NCBI GenBank assembly: GCA_012520935.1
Contig: JAAYNG010000076.1
Location: forward strand, 1-64,000
Direction: 5' to 3'
Source: Tissierellia bacterium
GTDB lineage: Bacteria > Bacillota > Clostridia > Tissierellales > Peptoniphilaceae
Length of the DNA stretch: 64,000 nucleotides
Of the stretch, positions 46,957-53,249 are shown piece after piece. Position numbers and translations under genes: made by a program. The notes under the pieces are model-generated. The model was not told the DNA's origin and searched no databases. It saw only the letters and a list, made by a program, of their open reading frames with translations. Within the stretch, counting starts at the first letter, position 1; each line of letters begins with the position of its first letter.

Positions 46957-46987
46957 TAAAAAAATCCATGGAAATGGCTCCATGGAT
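46957..46987 (-). terminator. Terminator of the corrinoid methyltransferase operon
   Basis: ATCCATGGA and TCCATGGAT form a 9-bp stem with a 6-base loop, followed on the minus strand by a T7 tract, 20 bases before the pcp ATG. Confidence 0.88.
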
Positions 46988-47017
46988 AATATATACCCAA
47001 AAAATATTATTAATCAA
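46988..47017 (-). promoter_or_regulatory. Candidate pcp promoter abutting the terminator stem
   Basis: TTGATT (47012-47017) with TATATT at an 18-base spacer (46988-46993) or TATATA at 16 bases. Transcription would start inside the terminator stem. Spacing is good; function is inferred. Confidence 0.4.
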
Positions 47018-48734
47018 ACCTTAAGCATCTTGCAAAGAGCCTTTCATAGTCATCAGTGGCAGATAGCTCCAAATAATTTACTTTTTTCCTTAGAGCTTTC
47101 ATTTCATCCCTAGTTTTCTTTGACAATAAGGCGATCATTGCACCCGAAAGGGAAGAATTACCAACATATTCTATTTTATCTTCAACCTCAAGAGGAAGTA
47201 TCCCGGAACCAACTAAACTTTCTGTTGACAAGTGGGACCCAAACTGACCGGCAATAATTATCTTATCTAGTTCTCCCATTGACAAATGAGCCTTATTCAA
47301 TAGGGCATAAAAGCCTGAAAGGATTGCCCCCTTAGCAAGTTGTATTTGACGAATATCTGATTGTGTTAATAATAGTCTAGGCTCTTTTTGAACAATAAAA
47401 TTTCGCTTTTTACCATCCAACCCTATATGATTTAACCTAAAGTCCCCCTCTTCTATGTCAGCTACTTTAACAAAAGCCCCTCCCCTTTCAACAATACCTG
47501 TCCTAACCAACTCATTCATGGCTGATAATATTCCACTACCACATATACCCTTGCCTTCACGACCACCAATTACTTCTGTTAAAACCTTCTCTTCTCCTAT
47601 CCTAATATTTTCAATAGCGCCCTCTGCTGCCCTCATACCAATACTTATATTCATACCCTCAAGGGCGGGACCTGCAGCACAAGAACAACTTAAAAACTCT
47701 CCATTAGCCAACAAAACTATTTCTCCATTTGTTCCGATATCAATAAAGAGTATGTTGCCATCACTTTCAGCCATAGAAGATACATATATACCGCTTACAA
47801 TATCAGCCCCTATAAAGGATGAAACAGCAGGAATCCCATATAATCTTGCATTATCTAACCTTATTCCAATATTTCTTGCTTCTATTGTAAATGATTCAGT
47901 AAATATTGGTGCATAAGGAGATATACCGATGAAACTTGAATCAAGCCCTAAAAGTGTATGCATCATAGTCGAATTAGCACTAATAACTACATCATATATT
48001 AATTTCCTGTTGATTTTTGTCTTGTCCAACAATTCGTCAATCATTCCATTTAATTGGCATACTAAAACATCTTGTAATTCTTCAATTCCATTTTCATTTT
48101 CAATCAAATAAGTAATCCTAGTTAAAACATCAAAACCGAAGTCTTTTTGACCATTAATATCTGAGACACTTTCTAAAACTCTGCCGGTTAATAAATCTAC
48201 CAAAGACATTACTATAGTTGTCGTACCTATATCAACAGCAAGTCCATAAATATATTCAGAAGTATCGCCTCTCTCTATTCCTATTAATTCTTCGTCGTAA
48301 AAGACACCAGTATATTCATTTGTCTTCCTTGAAATATATTTTAAAAGTTCAATTGGAACTTCGTTTATGTCTAAAGCTTCCTTTATCCTATCTATTACGG
48401 TTGCTTGTTCTCCAATATCTGTCTCTCTTATATTAAATTTTTTCTTTTCTACAGGAGGATTAAATTCAAACCTCCTAGTTGCACCTGTAGTTAAAATCCT
48501 ATGGTCATGGGCTTCTTTTTTAAGCTCTATTTCTATATTCTCTTCTGGAAAAGTTTTACAGGCTAAAACTTCCTTGCCTTTTGTAACATTAAAAAGCTTA
48601 CACTTACCACAGGTCCCCTTGCCTCCACAGGGTGACTCTAGCTTTATCCCATGCGAACGCAATGCTTCTAATAAACTTTGTCCTTTAGAATATTCAATCT
48701 CCCTATCTAAATCTCTTATCTTTATAATTCCCAT
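47010..48734 (-). CDS. Corrinoid reductive activase (RACo/RamA-like, [2Fe-2S] + DUF4445 ASKHA ATPase)
   Basis: 574 aa. The N-terminal plant-type ferredoxin domain has Cys36, Cys42, Cys45 and Cys59 (CGGKGTCGKC), binding one [2Fe-2S]. After a linker comes an ASKHA-fold ATPase: YGLAVDIGTTTIVMSLVDL, GNILFIDIGTNGEIVLLANG and CSCAAGPALEGMNISIGMRA. This matches activators such as RACo that use ATP and an electron to return oxidised Co(II) corrinoid proteins to Co(I). It lacks the C-terminal 4Fe-4S pair of methanogen RamA. Last gene before the operon terminator, 1 base after uroD-like gene 3, with AGAGGGA before its ATG. Confidence 0.93.
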   Translation of the reverse strand: MGIIKIRDLDREIEYSKGQSLLEALRSHGIKLESPCGGKGTCGKCKLFNVTKGKEVLACKTFPEENIEIELKKEAHDHRILTTGATRRFEFNPPVEKKKFNIRETDIGEQATVIDRIKEALDINEVPIELLKYISRKTNEYTGVFYDEELIGIERGDTSEYIYGLAVDIGTTTIVMSLVDLLTGRVLESVSDINGQKDFGFDVLTRITYLIENENGIEELQDVLVCQLNGMIDELLDKTKINRKLIYDVVISANSTMMHTLLGLDSSFIGISPYAPIFTESFTIEARNIGIRLDNARLYGIPAVSSFIGADIVSGIYVSSMAESDGNILFIDIGTNGEIVLLANGEFLSCSCAAGPALEGMNISIGMRAAEGAIENIRIGEEKVLTEVIGGREGKGICGSGILSAMNELVRTGIVERGGAFVKVADIEEGDFRLNHIGLDGKKRNFIVQKEPRLLLTQSDIRQIQLAKGAILSGFYALLNKAHLSMGELDKIIIAGQFGSHLSTESLVGSGILPLEVEDKIEYVGNSSLSGAMIALLSKKTRDEMKALRKKVNYLELSATDDYERLFARCLRFD

Positions 48735-48735
48735 A

Positions 48736-49746
48736 CTATCCCTCTGAAACTGTTTTTAATATTTCTTGAATGTTTTCTATAGGAGACCTCATCCCTAAAC
48801 CACAAGCTGGAGCTATTATATCTGCCCCACTCTTTTGTGAATGCCTTGTAAGTGAGGAAATCTTTTCTGTACCGGCAAACTCTAAACTGTAAGTAGAAAC
48901 ATTCCCCATAATCAAATGATTAGGAAGCGCTTCCTTTGCTTCTTTAATTGACACAATAGCATCAAAGCTTAAGACATCACATCTTAGCTCTCTTAATATA
49001 TTGAAAACCTTTTGCATCCTCCCACATATATGAACTATTGTAGGTATTCCCCTCTCATTTATTTTATCAAGTAGTTCATTCAAATATTTTAAAGCAAACT
49101 CTTCAAAATAGCTGGGTCCTAAAATTTCACCTGTACCACTAGGGTCGGATATTGCAATAATATCTACACCTGCACCAATTTGTGCAATAGTGTAATCAAT
49201 AAGAAATTCTTTTACTCTTTCCATAAATTTATGAGCATTTTCTCTTTTCTTAAGTAGCTCCTTATAAAAAACTGTTGGCTCTACCAAAGAAGTCGCAACG
49301 CTAATAGGACCTGAAACATTACCTATTATCGGGTAGTCTAAATCCCTATCCTTAAGTATTCTTATTGCATCATAAAGAACTCCCGCCCTTCCCTTTAACT
49401 CAAAGTTTGGAATTCTATCGTAATCATCGACCGTATCAAATAAGTATTCCTTCACTCTTGGCTCAATTGCCATGTCGCCCATGTCCACCCTTGCACCCAT
49501 ATTTTCAACTTCCACAGTCATGCAGAAAGGTAACCCAAAATTCTCAAAACAACCAGACTTAACAACTTCATATGCTAGGTCAGCCATCATTTTTGCATCT
49601 GAATGAGCCTCTGGCAAATATATATTAGCCCTATCCATTACACCTTTTGTAATGGAGTTCATCATACCGCCGGGGCAAATACACGGTTGCCTGTCAGAAA
49701 CATGGTTTTTAAAAAGCTCTTCGAATCTCTCTTTAGAAGTTTTCAT
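48736..49746 (-). CDS. UroD-fold (MtaA/CmuA-type) methyltransferase, gene 3
   Basis: 336 aa. UroD-like TIM barrel of the methylcobamide methyltransferase group rather than haem synthesis. TIVHICGRM supplies His239 and Cys241, and IAPACGLGM Cys315, the HxC...C zinc site of MtaA/MtbA enzymes. ISDPSGTGEILGP and DYPIIGNVSGPISVATSLV are family blocks. It starts at ATG 49746, just after the corrinoid-protein stop; a longer frame is rejected because it lies inside that gene. The ribosome binding site is weak (GGCGAG), so coupling is likely. Related to gene 2 of this operon. Substrate unknown. Confidence 0.88.
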   Translation of the reverse strand: MKTSKERFEELFKNHVSDRQPCICPGGMMNSITKGVMDRANIYLPEAHSDAKMMADLAYEVVKSGCFENFGLPFCMTVEVENMGARVDMGDMAIEPRVKEYLFDTVDDYDRIPNFELKGRAGVLYDAIRILKDRDLDYPIIGNVSGPISVATSLVEPTVFYKELLKKRENAHKFMERVKEFLIDYTIAQIGAGVDIIAISDPSGTGEILGPSYFEEFALKYLNELLDKINERGIPTIVHICGRMQKVFNILRELRCDVLSFDAIVSIKEAKEALPNHLIMGNVSTYSLEFAGTEKISSLTRHSQKSGADIIAPACGLGMRSPIENIQEILKTVSEG

Positions 49747-49747
49747 A

Positions 49748-50392
49748 CTAGCTCGCCACATGTTTTTTAACAAGTTGTACAGCTTCAACTGCATTTGAAG
49801 AATAGCCGTCAGCACCTATTTGATCAGAAAACTTTTGTGAAATCGGCCCACCGCCAATAAATACCTTAAAGTTATTCCTAATATTTTTATCTTTCAAAAT
49901 TTCAATAACTCTTTCCATGCCACCCATAGTAGTTGTCATAAGGGTTGACATACAAATAAAGTCGGCTTCCTCTTTAACCGCCCTTTCTACAAATTCGTCT
50001 AATTTTACATCCCTGCCCAAGTCAATCATGTCAAATCCACCGGCTTCAAGCATTATACGAACAAGATTTTTACCTATATCATGGGTATCTCCCTCAACAA
50101 CCCCGATTACACCCCTAACCTTCTTTTCTTCTGAATCCACTGGAATATGAGGTTTTAAAATATCCAAACCTTCATACATAGCATCAGAACATAGTAAAAG
50201 GTCGGTTACAAAGTATTCTTCCTCCTCGTATAAAACTCCTGCCCTGTTCATTCCATCCACAAGTCCTTCCATAATCCCATCAAGGGCAGGATAGCCTTCC
50301 TCTAGGTACTCATTAGCAGCCTCAATTACATCGTCTTCTTCCATTTCAAATACACCATCAGACAACCTCTTTAAATAATCTTTCTTTTCCAT
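49748..50392 (-). CDS. Corrinoid (B12)-binding methyl carrier protein
   Basis: 214 aa, the size of MtaC/MtbC/MttC proteins. A helical cap (about residues 1-90, with ALDGIMEGLVDGMNRAGVLY and EEYFVTDLLLCSDAMYEGL) is followed by a Rossmann B12 domain. Asp102-Thr-His104 in GVVEGDTHDIGKNLV is the DxHxxG motif whose His binds cobalt; CMSTLMTTT and VFIGGGPIS complete the site. It holds the methyl group between methyltransferases. It sits centrally among three UroD-like genes with an activase downstream. GGGGGCGGAG precedes the ATG. Confidence 0.95.
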   Translation of the reverse strand: MEKKDYLKRLSDGVFEMEEDDVIEAANEYLEEGYPALDGIMEGLVDGMNRAGVLYEEEEYFVTDLLLCSDAMYEGLDILKPHIPVDSEEKKVRGVIGVVEGDTHDIGKNLVRIMLEAGGFDMIDLGRDVKLDEFVERAVKEEADFICMSTLMTTTMGGMERVIEILKDKNIRNNFKVFIGGGPISQKFSDQIGADGYSSNAVEAVQLVKKHVAS

Positions 50393-50404
50393 AACTCCGC
50401 CCCC

Positions 50405-51268
50405 TTATAGTAAAATTAATTCCTTTAATTTTCCACTTTTTAATACATAATTAGTATTCTTAATACACATCTCGCCGGCAAACTTATATTCCCCAACATG
50501 TTTTATACATGCCTCACCATAGGTCATTTCTTCTCCTAAGTCAATTTCCCCCCACTTGGCTAGACCTGTCCCAATCAAAGCAAAAGAAGTCTTAGGACAT
50601 AACAATAATGAATTGCCATCACCAATGTCAAGACCTTTTAAAAATAGATAAGTAAAGTTTCTAGCCACATCCTCAGCCATCTTTGGTCCTAAAATATTGA
50701 CGCCGCCAGTGGAGTCAGCATAGGAAAAGAGTCTAACACCTGCCTTCTTGCCCTCCTCGATATATGAACTTAGGTTCCTCTTTAGATAATTAAATATCTT
50801 ATCTATCTTTTCAGGAGTCTTTCTCATGGCTTTAAAAACATACTTTGGGTCTATTAAAGCATTTAAAATAGTAAAGGGACCATTTAACATTAAAATAGGA
50901 TTTTCTCCATCTTCCGCTAAAATTTTTACAGCCTTTAAAGTTTCTCCAATCCTACCCTTTGAAAAATCAATGTCTTGAAGGTTAGAAAGATCATCAATGT
51001 TATCAAAGGCATAAGTTTTCGCCCTCGGACCAGCAATTTCATTTCCTAAATTTATATCTCCACCCATAGCCTCACCCTCAACTGTATGACAAAAAGGAAT
51101 TAAAGAATATTCAACCCCCTTTTCTTCCCTAATACCTTTTGCAATTGACACCATAAATTCACAGGTTTTATAAGCGTCCGGAAACTTTAAATTATATTTT
51201 TTCATAACACTTTCAGGTACTCCGCCGCCATCATCAAAAGTACAATTAAAATCTATTATTTTTCCCAT
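50405..51268 (-). CDS. Short UroD-fold protein with altered metal site, gene 2
   Basis: 287 aa, clearly shorter than its two operon relatives. FCHTVEGEAMGGDINLGNEI and YADSTGGVNILGPKMAEDVA align with GLPFCMTVEVENMG and SDPSGTGEILGP of gene 3, so the two are paralogues. At the zinc site it reads SLLLCPKTS (Leu222, Cys224) where gene 3 has HIC; a second Cys is in GEMCIKN (Cys268), only 44 residues on instead of about 75. The canonical His ligand is missing. It may use another ligand, or be a partner subunit. Start ATG 51268 follows AAAGGGG. Confidence 0.8.
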   Translation of the reverse strand: MGKIIDFNCTFDDGGGVPESVMKKYNLKFPDAYKTCEFMVSIAKGIREEKGVEYSLIPFCHTVEGEAMGGDINLGNEIAGPRAKTYAFDNIDDLSNLQDIDFSKGRIGETLKAVKILAEDGENPILMLNGPFTILNALIDPKYVFKAMRKTPEKIDKIFNYLKRNLSSYIEEGKKAGVRLFSYADSTGGVNILGPKMAEDVARNFTYLFLKGLDIGDGNSLLLCPKTSFALIGTGLAKWGEIDLGEEMTYGEACIKHVGEYKFAGEMCIKNTNYVLKSGKLKELILL

Positions 51269-51269
51269 C

Positions 51270-52145
51270 TTATACCCCTTTTCCAAAGTCTTTTAAATCC
51301 TTGCCGATTAAGCAAAGTCCACCAGCTTCCCCTTTAAAGTCTACTAAAGAATTCTTGCCATTTACATAGTCAAATCTCTTTAAAACTCCATCTATTTCAA
51401 CAAAGCCCTTTCCCCTAATGACTTTTCCAAAGCTTCCAGACTTTAATTTTTTAAGCCAATTCTCCCAAGTTGGCCTAGAGAAAGAAAGTAACATATTAGT
51501 TGACCTGGTACTTAATCCCATAATGCTAGCATCTTCAACATAAGAAGCAAGCTCTTTAGAAAAATCATACCTCCTATTTAATATATCATTCCATTCGTCA
51601 ACAGAATATTCGTTATCATTTGAAACAATTATTTCAGCACTAGGGTTAATCTCCCTTAGTAAATCTTTAATTTTATCTAATTCTTTCTCACTTTCCCCCT
51701 TAGTTAAAATCAGCGTAGAAGCATATTTTATCTGGTCTCTATAAAAGTCTCCAAAAACTTCTATATAGTCTTCAAAGTCTAAGGAATCCACCATAGTAAT
51801 TGGTGCAACAAGTTCAATATTATCTTTAATAATTGGCTTAAGGATATCTAAAATACTTGATAAGCTGCCTACCCCTGTAGGCTCAATAATTAGATTGTCT
51901 GGCTTTACTTCTTCATATATTTTTAAAACAGCCTCTTTGAAATCACCCTTCATTGAACAGCAAACACAACCATTTTTCAACTCTGTAACAGTAAGTTCAT
52001 TTTCCCTTAATACAGAAGAGTCTATGTCCACTTCTCCAAATTCATTTTCTAAAATTGCAATCTTACCCTCAAGGATTTTTACCAATTCTAAAATGAATGT
52101 TGTCTTGCCTGCTCCAAGAAAACCTGAAATAATAAAAATAAGCAT
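51270..52145 (-). CDS. CobW/G3E-family GTPase
   Basis: 291 aa P-loop GTPase. FIISGFLGAGKTTFILEL is the Walker A (residues about 8-16), LKNGCVCCSMKGD the metal-binding CxCC (Cys60, 62, 63), IIEPTGVGS the Walker B/switch and TLILTKGESEKE the base-recognition region (TKxE in place of NKxD). G3E GTPases load metals or cofactors onto enzymes (CobW, YjiA, HypB, MeaB relatives). Here it is inside a corrinoid/zinc methyltransferase operon, 1 base after uroD-like gene 1, so metal or cobamide delivery to these proteins is plausible inference. Confidence 0.9.
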   Translation of the reverse strand: MLIFIISGFLGAGKTTFILELVKILEGKIAILENEFGEVDIDSSVLRENELTVTELKNGCVCCSMKGDFKEAVLKIYEEVKPDNLIIEPTGVGSLSSILDILKPIIKDNIELVAPITMVDSLDFEDYIEVFGDFYRDQIKYASTLILTKGESEKELDKIKDLLREINPSAEIIVSNDNEYSVDEWNDILNRRYDFSKELASYVEDASIMGLSTRSTNMLLSFSRPTWENWLKKLKSGSFGKVIRGKGFVEIDGVLKRFDYVNGKNSLVDFKGEAGGLCLIGKDLKDFGKGV

Positions 52146-52146
52146 T

Positions 52147-53211
52147 TTAACTCCTTAACTTATCTACATCTATTGGATACTTTCCAAACTCTCTACAAGC
52201 TTCATAATAATAAGCAACATTTTCCTTAGGCATACCTAGAGGAACTTGGCAACCACTGGAAACCATATAACCCTTTGGTGAATCATAAGCCTTCAATATG
52301 CATTCTTTTACTGAATTTCTTATAGACTCCCTGTCCCCCCTTTGGAGTACATCAACAGGAGGAACATTTCCAACAATAAGTATATCATTTCCAATTATCC
52401 CCTTAGCTTCAGCCAAGTCCTCCACATTATCTATACTAAAGCTAGCAACACCTGTTTCCACAATATCTTTCCAAATACCCTTGCTATGTCCACAAATATG
52501 GGTAGCTGGTTTCTTACCCAAAGTCTTAAAAATATGTTCAACCAAGTCCTTATAGTAAGGTAATGAAAATTCTAAAAACTGACTCCTGCTAAGTAGGTCT
52601 GTTGAAGTAACAGGGTCAGAAATTGAAGTAGAAAAAACCTCCCTTTTGGCAAGCTCATCAATATATCTTTTGTTAGACTCATTAATAATTTCTAACATCT
52701 GTTTCACTTTATCTGGAGCCTTCCTAGTCCATTTCAAGAAATTTTCAGCACCACAAACATTTACAGCAACAGAAACAGGCCCAGCCATGCCTGCAGATAC
52801 ACCCACCTCTTTACCAACTTTATTCTTAAGCTTTACTAAAGCTTCCAAGACTATCGGAAGCCTCCCATCCTTATTTGGGTCAACAAGCTTTAAATTATCA
52901 ATATCCTCTACCTTTTTAACCACAGGATTAATAACCATGGAAATTGCATCTGGTTTATAATCTAATTCAGAACCCATAGCCTCTGCAATACCTCTAAGAG
53001 TAATGGATAAGTTAGTACCATCAGACTTAAACATCTCATAGGTCTTTATTTCCGTTTCAGACATTATATCTGAATCAAAACTATAATCAACAACACTCAC
53101 ACCATGCAAAGAACAAGCTGTTTCACCAAAGGATAATGTAGCAGGAATTCTGTCTATCGGCTCTCCTTTTGCAAAGGCAGTCATTCTTTCTAAAGAAGTC
53201 ATTTCGCTCAT
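52147..53211 (-). CDS. UroD-fold (MtaA/CmuA-type) methyltransferase, gene 1
   Basis: 354 aa. TSLERMTAFAKGEPIDRIPA is the typical N-terminus of MtaA-like proteins. His238 and Cys240 (THICGHSKG) with Cys321 (SSGCQVPLGMP) give the HxC...C zinc site used to bind a thiol methyl acceptor; SISDPVTSTDLLSR and AGMAGPVSVAVNV are family blocks. First gene of the operon behind an extended -10 promoter; GGAGG is 8 bases before the ATG at 53211. The last step could be methyl transfer to a thiol such as homocysteine, but that is inference; coenzyme M is not expected in this kind of bacterium. Confidence 0.9.
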   Translation of the reverse strand: MSEMTSLERMTAFAKGEPIDRIPATLSFGETACSLHGVSVVDYSFDSDIMSETEIKTYEMFKSDGTNLSITLRGIAEAMGSELDYKPDAISMVINPVVKKVEDIDNLKLVDPNKDGRLPIVLEALVKLKNKVGKEVGVSAGMAGPVSVAVNVCGAENFLKWTRKAPDKVKQMLEIINESNKRYIDELAKREVFSTSISDPVTSTDLLSRSQFLEFSLPYYKDLVEHIFKTLGKKPATHICGHSKGIWKDIVETGVASFSIDNVEDLAEAKGIIGNDILIVGNVPPVDVLQRGDRESIRNSVKECILKAYDSPKGYMVSSGCQVPLGMPKENVAYYYEACREFGKYPIDVDKLRS

Positions 53212-53243
53212 TACACCCACCTCCAACTAATAAATTTATGATA

Positions 53244-53249
53244 ATTATA
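53244..53249 (-). promoter_or_regulatory. Extended -10 promoter for the corrinoid operon
   Basis: TG-T-TATAAT on the minus strand, 32 bases before the ATG of uroD-like gene 1. No good -35. It lies in the 145-base gap after the nrdR terminator; no cobalamin riboswitch fold (B12 box) was recognised there. Confidence 0.55.

Follow-up and report, generated by a model that had tools for sequence, protein, structure and literature searches.

Corrinoid-dependent methyl transfer to and from selenium or sulfur has been proposed as the chemistry of type 1 mlp gene clusters, which encode at least Mlp2 and Mlp3 and are widespread among anaerobes, in more than 100 genera, mostly Firmicutes (Kountz & Balskus 2023, PMC10418091). 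In Clostridium ljungdahlii, the cluster runs in the order Mlp1, Mlp2, corrinoid protein (CP), Mlp3 and Ram, and methylcobalamin:selenide activity was reported for its Mlp2 (ClMlp2). The cluster was tied to dimethylselenide use in Methanococcus voltae by the genetics of SdmABC, and roughly 10% of clusters, those in selenium-less hosts with MarHDK-like genes, were assigned to methionine salvage. The zinc ligands His-Cys-Cys were described as a soft set of the S/Se type, which several Mlp1 proteins lack, an exception that the preprint allows for Mlp1 (all PMC10418091). In M. maripaludis, the equivalent locus is upregulated under selenium depletion (PMC11097638). Here we compare with these systems a six-gene operon found in a 64,000-nucleotide stretch of a Tissierellia bacterium assembly (the window).

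The operon consists of co-directional genes on the minus strand, separated by gaps of 1, 1, 12, 1 and 1 bases. In the order of transcription, its features are:

52147–53226, minus strand: U1, MtaA/CmuA-like UroD-fold methyltransferase in the Mlp2-like position, lineage U1A (URO-D 257 bits; TIGR01463; tree)
51270–52145, minus strand: CobW/COG0523-type GTPase (cobW 126 bits; GCxCC motif; nearest solved structure YjiA)
50405–51268, minus strand: U2, short UroD-fold protein of 287 amino acids, Mlp1-like by gene order (URO-D 83 bits; alignment; model)
49748–50392, minus strand: corrinoid (methyl carrier) protein (B12-binding and B12-binding_2; TIGR02370 195 bits)
48736–49746, minus strand: U3, methylcobalamin:thiol methyltransferase-like UroD-fold protein, Mlp3-like (PRK06252 372 bits)
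47010–48734, minus strand: Ram/RACE corrinoid reductive activase (RACo_C_ter 235 bits; Raco_middle 180 bits)
46964–46987, minus strand: terminator-like hairpin with a T run, after Ram (hairpin scan)

Two starts differ from those listed for the open reading frames. For U2 we used the ATG at 51268, set by alignment, and did not adopt the listed TTG at 51286 because it would overlap CobW; for U3, the ATG at 49746 was likewise taken from the alignment, as the listed GTG at 49815 overlaps the carrier gene. With these coordinates, the tight one-directional arrangement with gaps of 1–12 bases described in an earlier, sequence-only reading of this DNA holds, and Pfam and NCBIfam agree with the families it named (URO-D three times, cobW, B12-binding with B12-binding_2, and RACo). 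That reading had also closed the operon with a terminator. A hairpin followed by a T run is present there (46987–46964), but it is weak evidence by itself, as the scan of the region returned five terminator-like sites when 3.8 were expected. No riboswitch or other Rfam element was found near the operon at the gathering threshold.

The way in which type 1 mlp clusters have been defined fits this operon closely. The definition calls for at least two MtaA-like proteins with one corrinoid and one Ram/RACE protein, and the operon encodes three URO-D proteins, a B12-binding protein and a RACo protein; it requires one direction, no divergent gene in between and less than 2 kb between core genes, and here only the 0.9-kb CobW gene separates U1 from U2. 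No homologue of a tetrahydrofolate methyltransferase may lie within 20 kb, and none does: the only Pterin_bind matches of the genome are on contigs C162 (FolP) and C166 (MetH), with none on C158, the operon's own contig. Mlp3 is represented by U3, judged by tree and by position relative to the Clostridium clusters, and U1 is a candidate Mlp2; the His-Cys-Cys set is present in U1 and U3 while U2 has Leu, Cys and Cys, and genes for selenium use occur in the same genome. The operon differs from the described clusters in that its U1 belongs to a sister lineage (U1A), CobW is included and U2 is without the zinc-site His; the gene order is the same apart from the place of U1. On this basis we consider that the operon probably belongs to the type 1 mlp gene clusters and encodes an S/Se-methyltransferase system dependent on a corrinoid carrier, with selenium recovery as its likely purpose. 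The view of a self-contained corrinoid methyl-transfer operon whose methyltransferase candidates are all UroD-fold stands, and the view of a new, unplaced system is not supported. The sequence-only reading had named two outcomes that would speak against novelty, a characterised operon family with a known substrate and a gene order not conserved elsewhere; the first has largely come about, through a described family and a candidate substrate, and the gene set recurs widely.

Within the order, 70 of 249 genomes have a UroD-fold match to U3, which is strong in 34 including the host, and relatives of U3 were found in 414 genome loci overall. Among the best 80 of these 414 loci, its partners recur, with U3 in 77, Ram in 74, U2 in 73, the corrinoid protein in 71, a U1-like protein in 70 and CobW in 26. 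All six genes are found in Clostridium carboxidivorans P7, as well as in Sporomusa ovata, Tepidibacter mesophilus and C. tunisiense, in the order CobW-U2-U1-CP-U3-Ram. As gene content is conserved elsewhere, a chance arrangement can be excluded, and because this order without CobW is that of C. ljungdahlii, we equate U2 with Mlp1, U1 with the Mlp2 position and U3 with Mlp3, a correspondence drawn from gene order. Further genes recur beside related clusters, encoding a DUF1638 protein (L099 12640-13341), a 2-hydroxyglutaryl-CoA dehydratase D-like (HGD-D) protein (L106 10532-11680), and an NlpA lipoprotein with permease transporters (L079 14918-17413). One cluster adjoins a gene for a 244-amino-acid protein (L059 8316-9047) whose match to the URO-D profile is limited to the end of the profile, and which carries an HTCG motif like the zinc site and resembles an ASKHA ATPase at its N-terminus; about six loci have similar open reading frames.

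In a tree of 253 sequences, the U1, U2 and U3 proteins fall apart into separate groups. The best subfamily score of U1 is to TIGR01463 (mtaA_cmuA), at 212 bits under a cut-off of 235, its nearest solved structure is MtaA (4AY7), and it has His-Cys-Cys as zinc ligands, as do all U1 proteins except one. The U1 group contains a lineage of 58 sequences, U1A, that includes the operon's U1 and its paralogue (support 0.975), and 42 remaining sequences, U1B, that are not strictly monophyletic and include the Clostridium protein in the Mlp2 position. U1 and the Clostridium Mlp2-position proteins share one clade (support 0.97) as sister lineages that are about 30% identical, and mean identity is 29% between U1A and U1B, compared to 42–45% within them. 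Because of this low identity, the activity assayed for ClMlp2 may not apply to U1. In the best 80 of the 414 loci, 27 have U1A only, 28 have U1B only, 13 have both and 12 have neither. U1A is a second lineage resembling Mlp2, which clusters of this kind carry either in place of the Clostridium type or beside it. The host genome also carries a fourth MtaA/CmuA-like UroD-fold gene (L127 9952-11016, contig C85), which is 46% identical to U1, belongs to the U1A lineage and stands alone after ribosomal protein genes.

U3 exceeds the curated cut-off of 244 bits for the methylcobalamin:coenzyme M methyltransferase subfamily (PRK06252), its His-Cys-Cys ligands are invariant (78 of 78 U3 proteins), and by tree and by position, after the carrier and before Ram, it is orthologous to the Clostridium cluster protein. 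The carrier has the cobalt-ligand motif GDTHDIG, and carriers 54–75% identical to it occur in 71 of the best 80 of the 414 loci, while Ram combines an N-terminal [2Fe-2S] motif with RACo middle and ASKHA domains. The claim that two of the UroD-fold members keep an HxC...C zinc site thus applies to U1 and U3. In U2, the zinc-site His is replaced by Leu, as in 52 of 74 U2 proteins, and Cys 224 and Cys 268 are invariant in an alignment of 43 sequences. The U2 model has a pLDDT of 92.5 and its closest solved fold is MtaA, a partial match with a TM score of 0.62 on the query. Either U2-type proteins are altered more often than the preprint implies, or the Mlp1 group of the preprint is bounded differently.

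CobW has the conserved residues G59, C60, C62 and C63 of the invariant metal motif GCxCC, and is likely a metal (zinc) chaperone. GTPases of COG0523 that adjoin corrinoid, zinc-using methyltransferases were reported in 2009, M. maripaludis and C. botulinum being among the organisms concerned, and the operon's CobW is a candidate member of subfamily 13, which shares this neighbourhood with corrinoid-dependent zinc-using methyltransferases (Haas 2009, PMC2770081); the main text of the preprint makes no mention of CobW (PMC10418091). Its identity as NCBI's CobW-related selenoprotein was rejected, as it scores 81 bits where the cut-off is 180.

Two further systems are similar. SdmABC, the dimethylselenide system of Methanococcus, has a corrinoid protein and UroD-fold methyltransferases reported as Mlp2-type, a likeness taken from its description, but is archaeal and has coenzyme M as its proposed acceptor (PMC10418091, PMC11097638). 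The methanogen enzymes MtaA, MtbA and MtsA share the UroD fold, the His-Cys-Cys zinc site and action on a methyl-corrinoid protein, whereas the host here is a bacterium and the operon's proteins fall short of the equivalog cut-offs for MtaA and MtbA.

The host carries selD, with an in-frame TGA, together with selA and selB, as well as a glycine reductase operon with an in-frame TGA in grdA; the identification of selA and of the other glycine reductase genes relied on sequence and position rather than on a profile search. Across the other 248 genomes of the order, SelB is above cut-off in 30 of the 33 that are cluster-positive compared to 126 of 215 that are cluster-negative (p = 2e-4), and SelD in 32 of 33 compared to 166 of 215 (p = 0.005), in tests that ignore phylogeny. 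The published association of the cluster with selenium thus holds in the host and in its order. One relative in the same family, G031 (L006), has the cluster with neither SelB nor SelD above cut-off.

We infer from these features a scheme for methyl transfer. Ram, with ATP and its [2Fe-2S] centre, would reduce the carrier cobalt to Co(I); a UroD-fold enzyme with zinc, for which U1 is the best candidate, would move a methyl group from a methyl-selenium or methyl-sulfur compound to the carrier; and a further zinc enzyme, most plausibly U3 (Mlp3), would pass it on to a thiol acceptor. CobW would probably load zinc into the UroD-fold enzymes, and for U2 (Mlp1) the options are a third methyltransferase whose site has changed, or a subunit with an accessory role. 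In a selenoprotein-making host with glycine reductase, the likely purpose would be the recovery of selenium lost to methylation. Demethylation of selenium (or sulfur) compounds is the role that fits best, as the operon agrees with the structural side of the published cluster definition, U1 and U3 keep His-Cys-Cys and the host has selenium genes. Counted against this reading are the roughly 30% identity of U1 to the Clostridium proteins, the operon itself containing no selenium gene, G031 and the incomplete zinc site of U2.

The main rival, to which we give a clearly smaller but real chance, is that the same machinery serves methyl-sulfur metabolism or methionine salvage, with methylthio compounds demethylated and the methyl group returned to a thiol. 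This is the role given to the clusters of selenium-less hosts with MarHDK-like genes (PMC10418091), methionine-type transporters (NlpA lipoprotein and permease) lie near several related clusters, G031, which is near the operon in the U3 tree, has its cluster without selenium genes, and the host too has NifHDK-like genes. However, the selenocysteine machinery of the host is complete and glycine reductase is present, and the host's NifH-, NifD- and NifK-like genes, none at a curated cut-off, directly follow a FecBCD-type ABC transporter (L136 848-7498, contig C7:1-8220) and may be Mar-like or of another type. A NifD-like match below 1e-15 is limited to 7 of the 33 other cluster-positive genomes of the order, G031 not among them, and we rejected these genes as partners of the operon.

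That the operon is instead a methylotrophic system for O-, N- or halo-demethylation with an unrecognised acceptor appears improbable. The best score of U1 is to the MtaA/CmuA subfamily and other UroD-fold proteins use methoxy and methyl-halide compounds (PMC13222342), but the ligands are of the S/Se type, membership in the cluster family points elsewhere and MetH is the only folate-linked acceptor enzyme. The lack of MttB and MtrH-type homologues noted earlier extends to the whole genome assembly, which has no MTTB match and no separate enzyme of the MtrH/AcsE type, with Pterin_bind only in MetH and FolP; a methylamine system and a folate-linked demethylase were dropped for these reasons. Least credible is the methionine-forming route raised by the sequence-only reading, in which the carrier and UroD-fold proteins would methylate homocysteine instead of MetH or MetE: UroD-fold proteins are distantly related to MetE and metE is absent from the host genome, but metF, an activation-like protein for MetH and metH share one neighbourhood on contig C166, so such a route is not needed and was dropped. 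The MetH found there has about 792 amino acids and is without a reactivation domain (L128 4485-8365, contig C166), and a 217-amino-acid protein encoded between metH and metF weakly matches the end of MetH.

A seemingly orphan methyl-transfer operon is now placed in a described and widespread family, and U2 emerges as a conserved protein of the Mlp1 type, short and with part of its zinc site missing. It is possible, though we hold it doubtful, that U1 (U1A) and the His-less U2 family use donors or acceptors other than the selenide tested with ClMlp2, in which case the cluster type would include functionally distinct, uncharacterised S/Se-methyltransferases and U2 would have a variant of the UroD-fold zinc site built on two cysteines. 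The recycling of methyl-selenium by anaerobes, among them gut bacteria, is relevant to selenium cycling.
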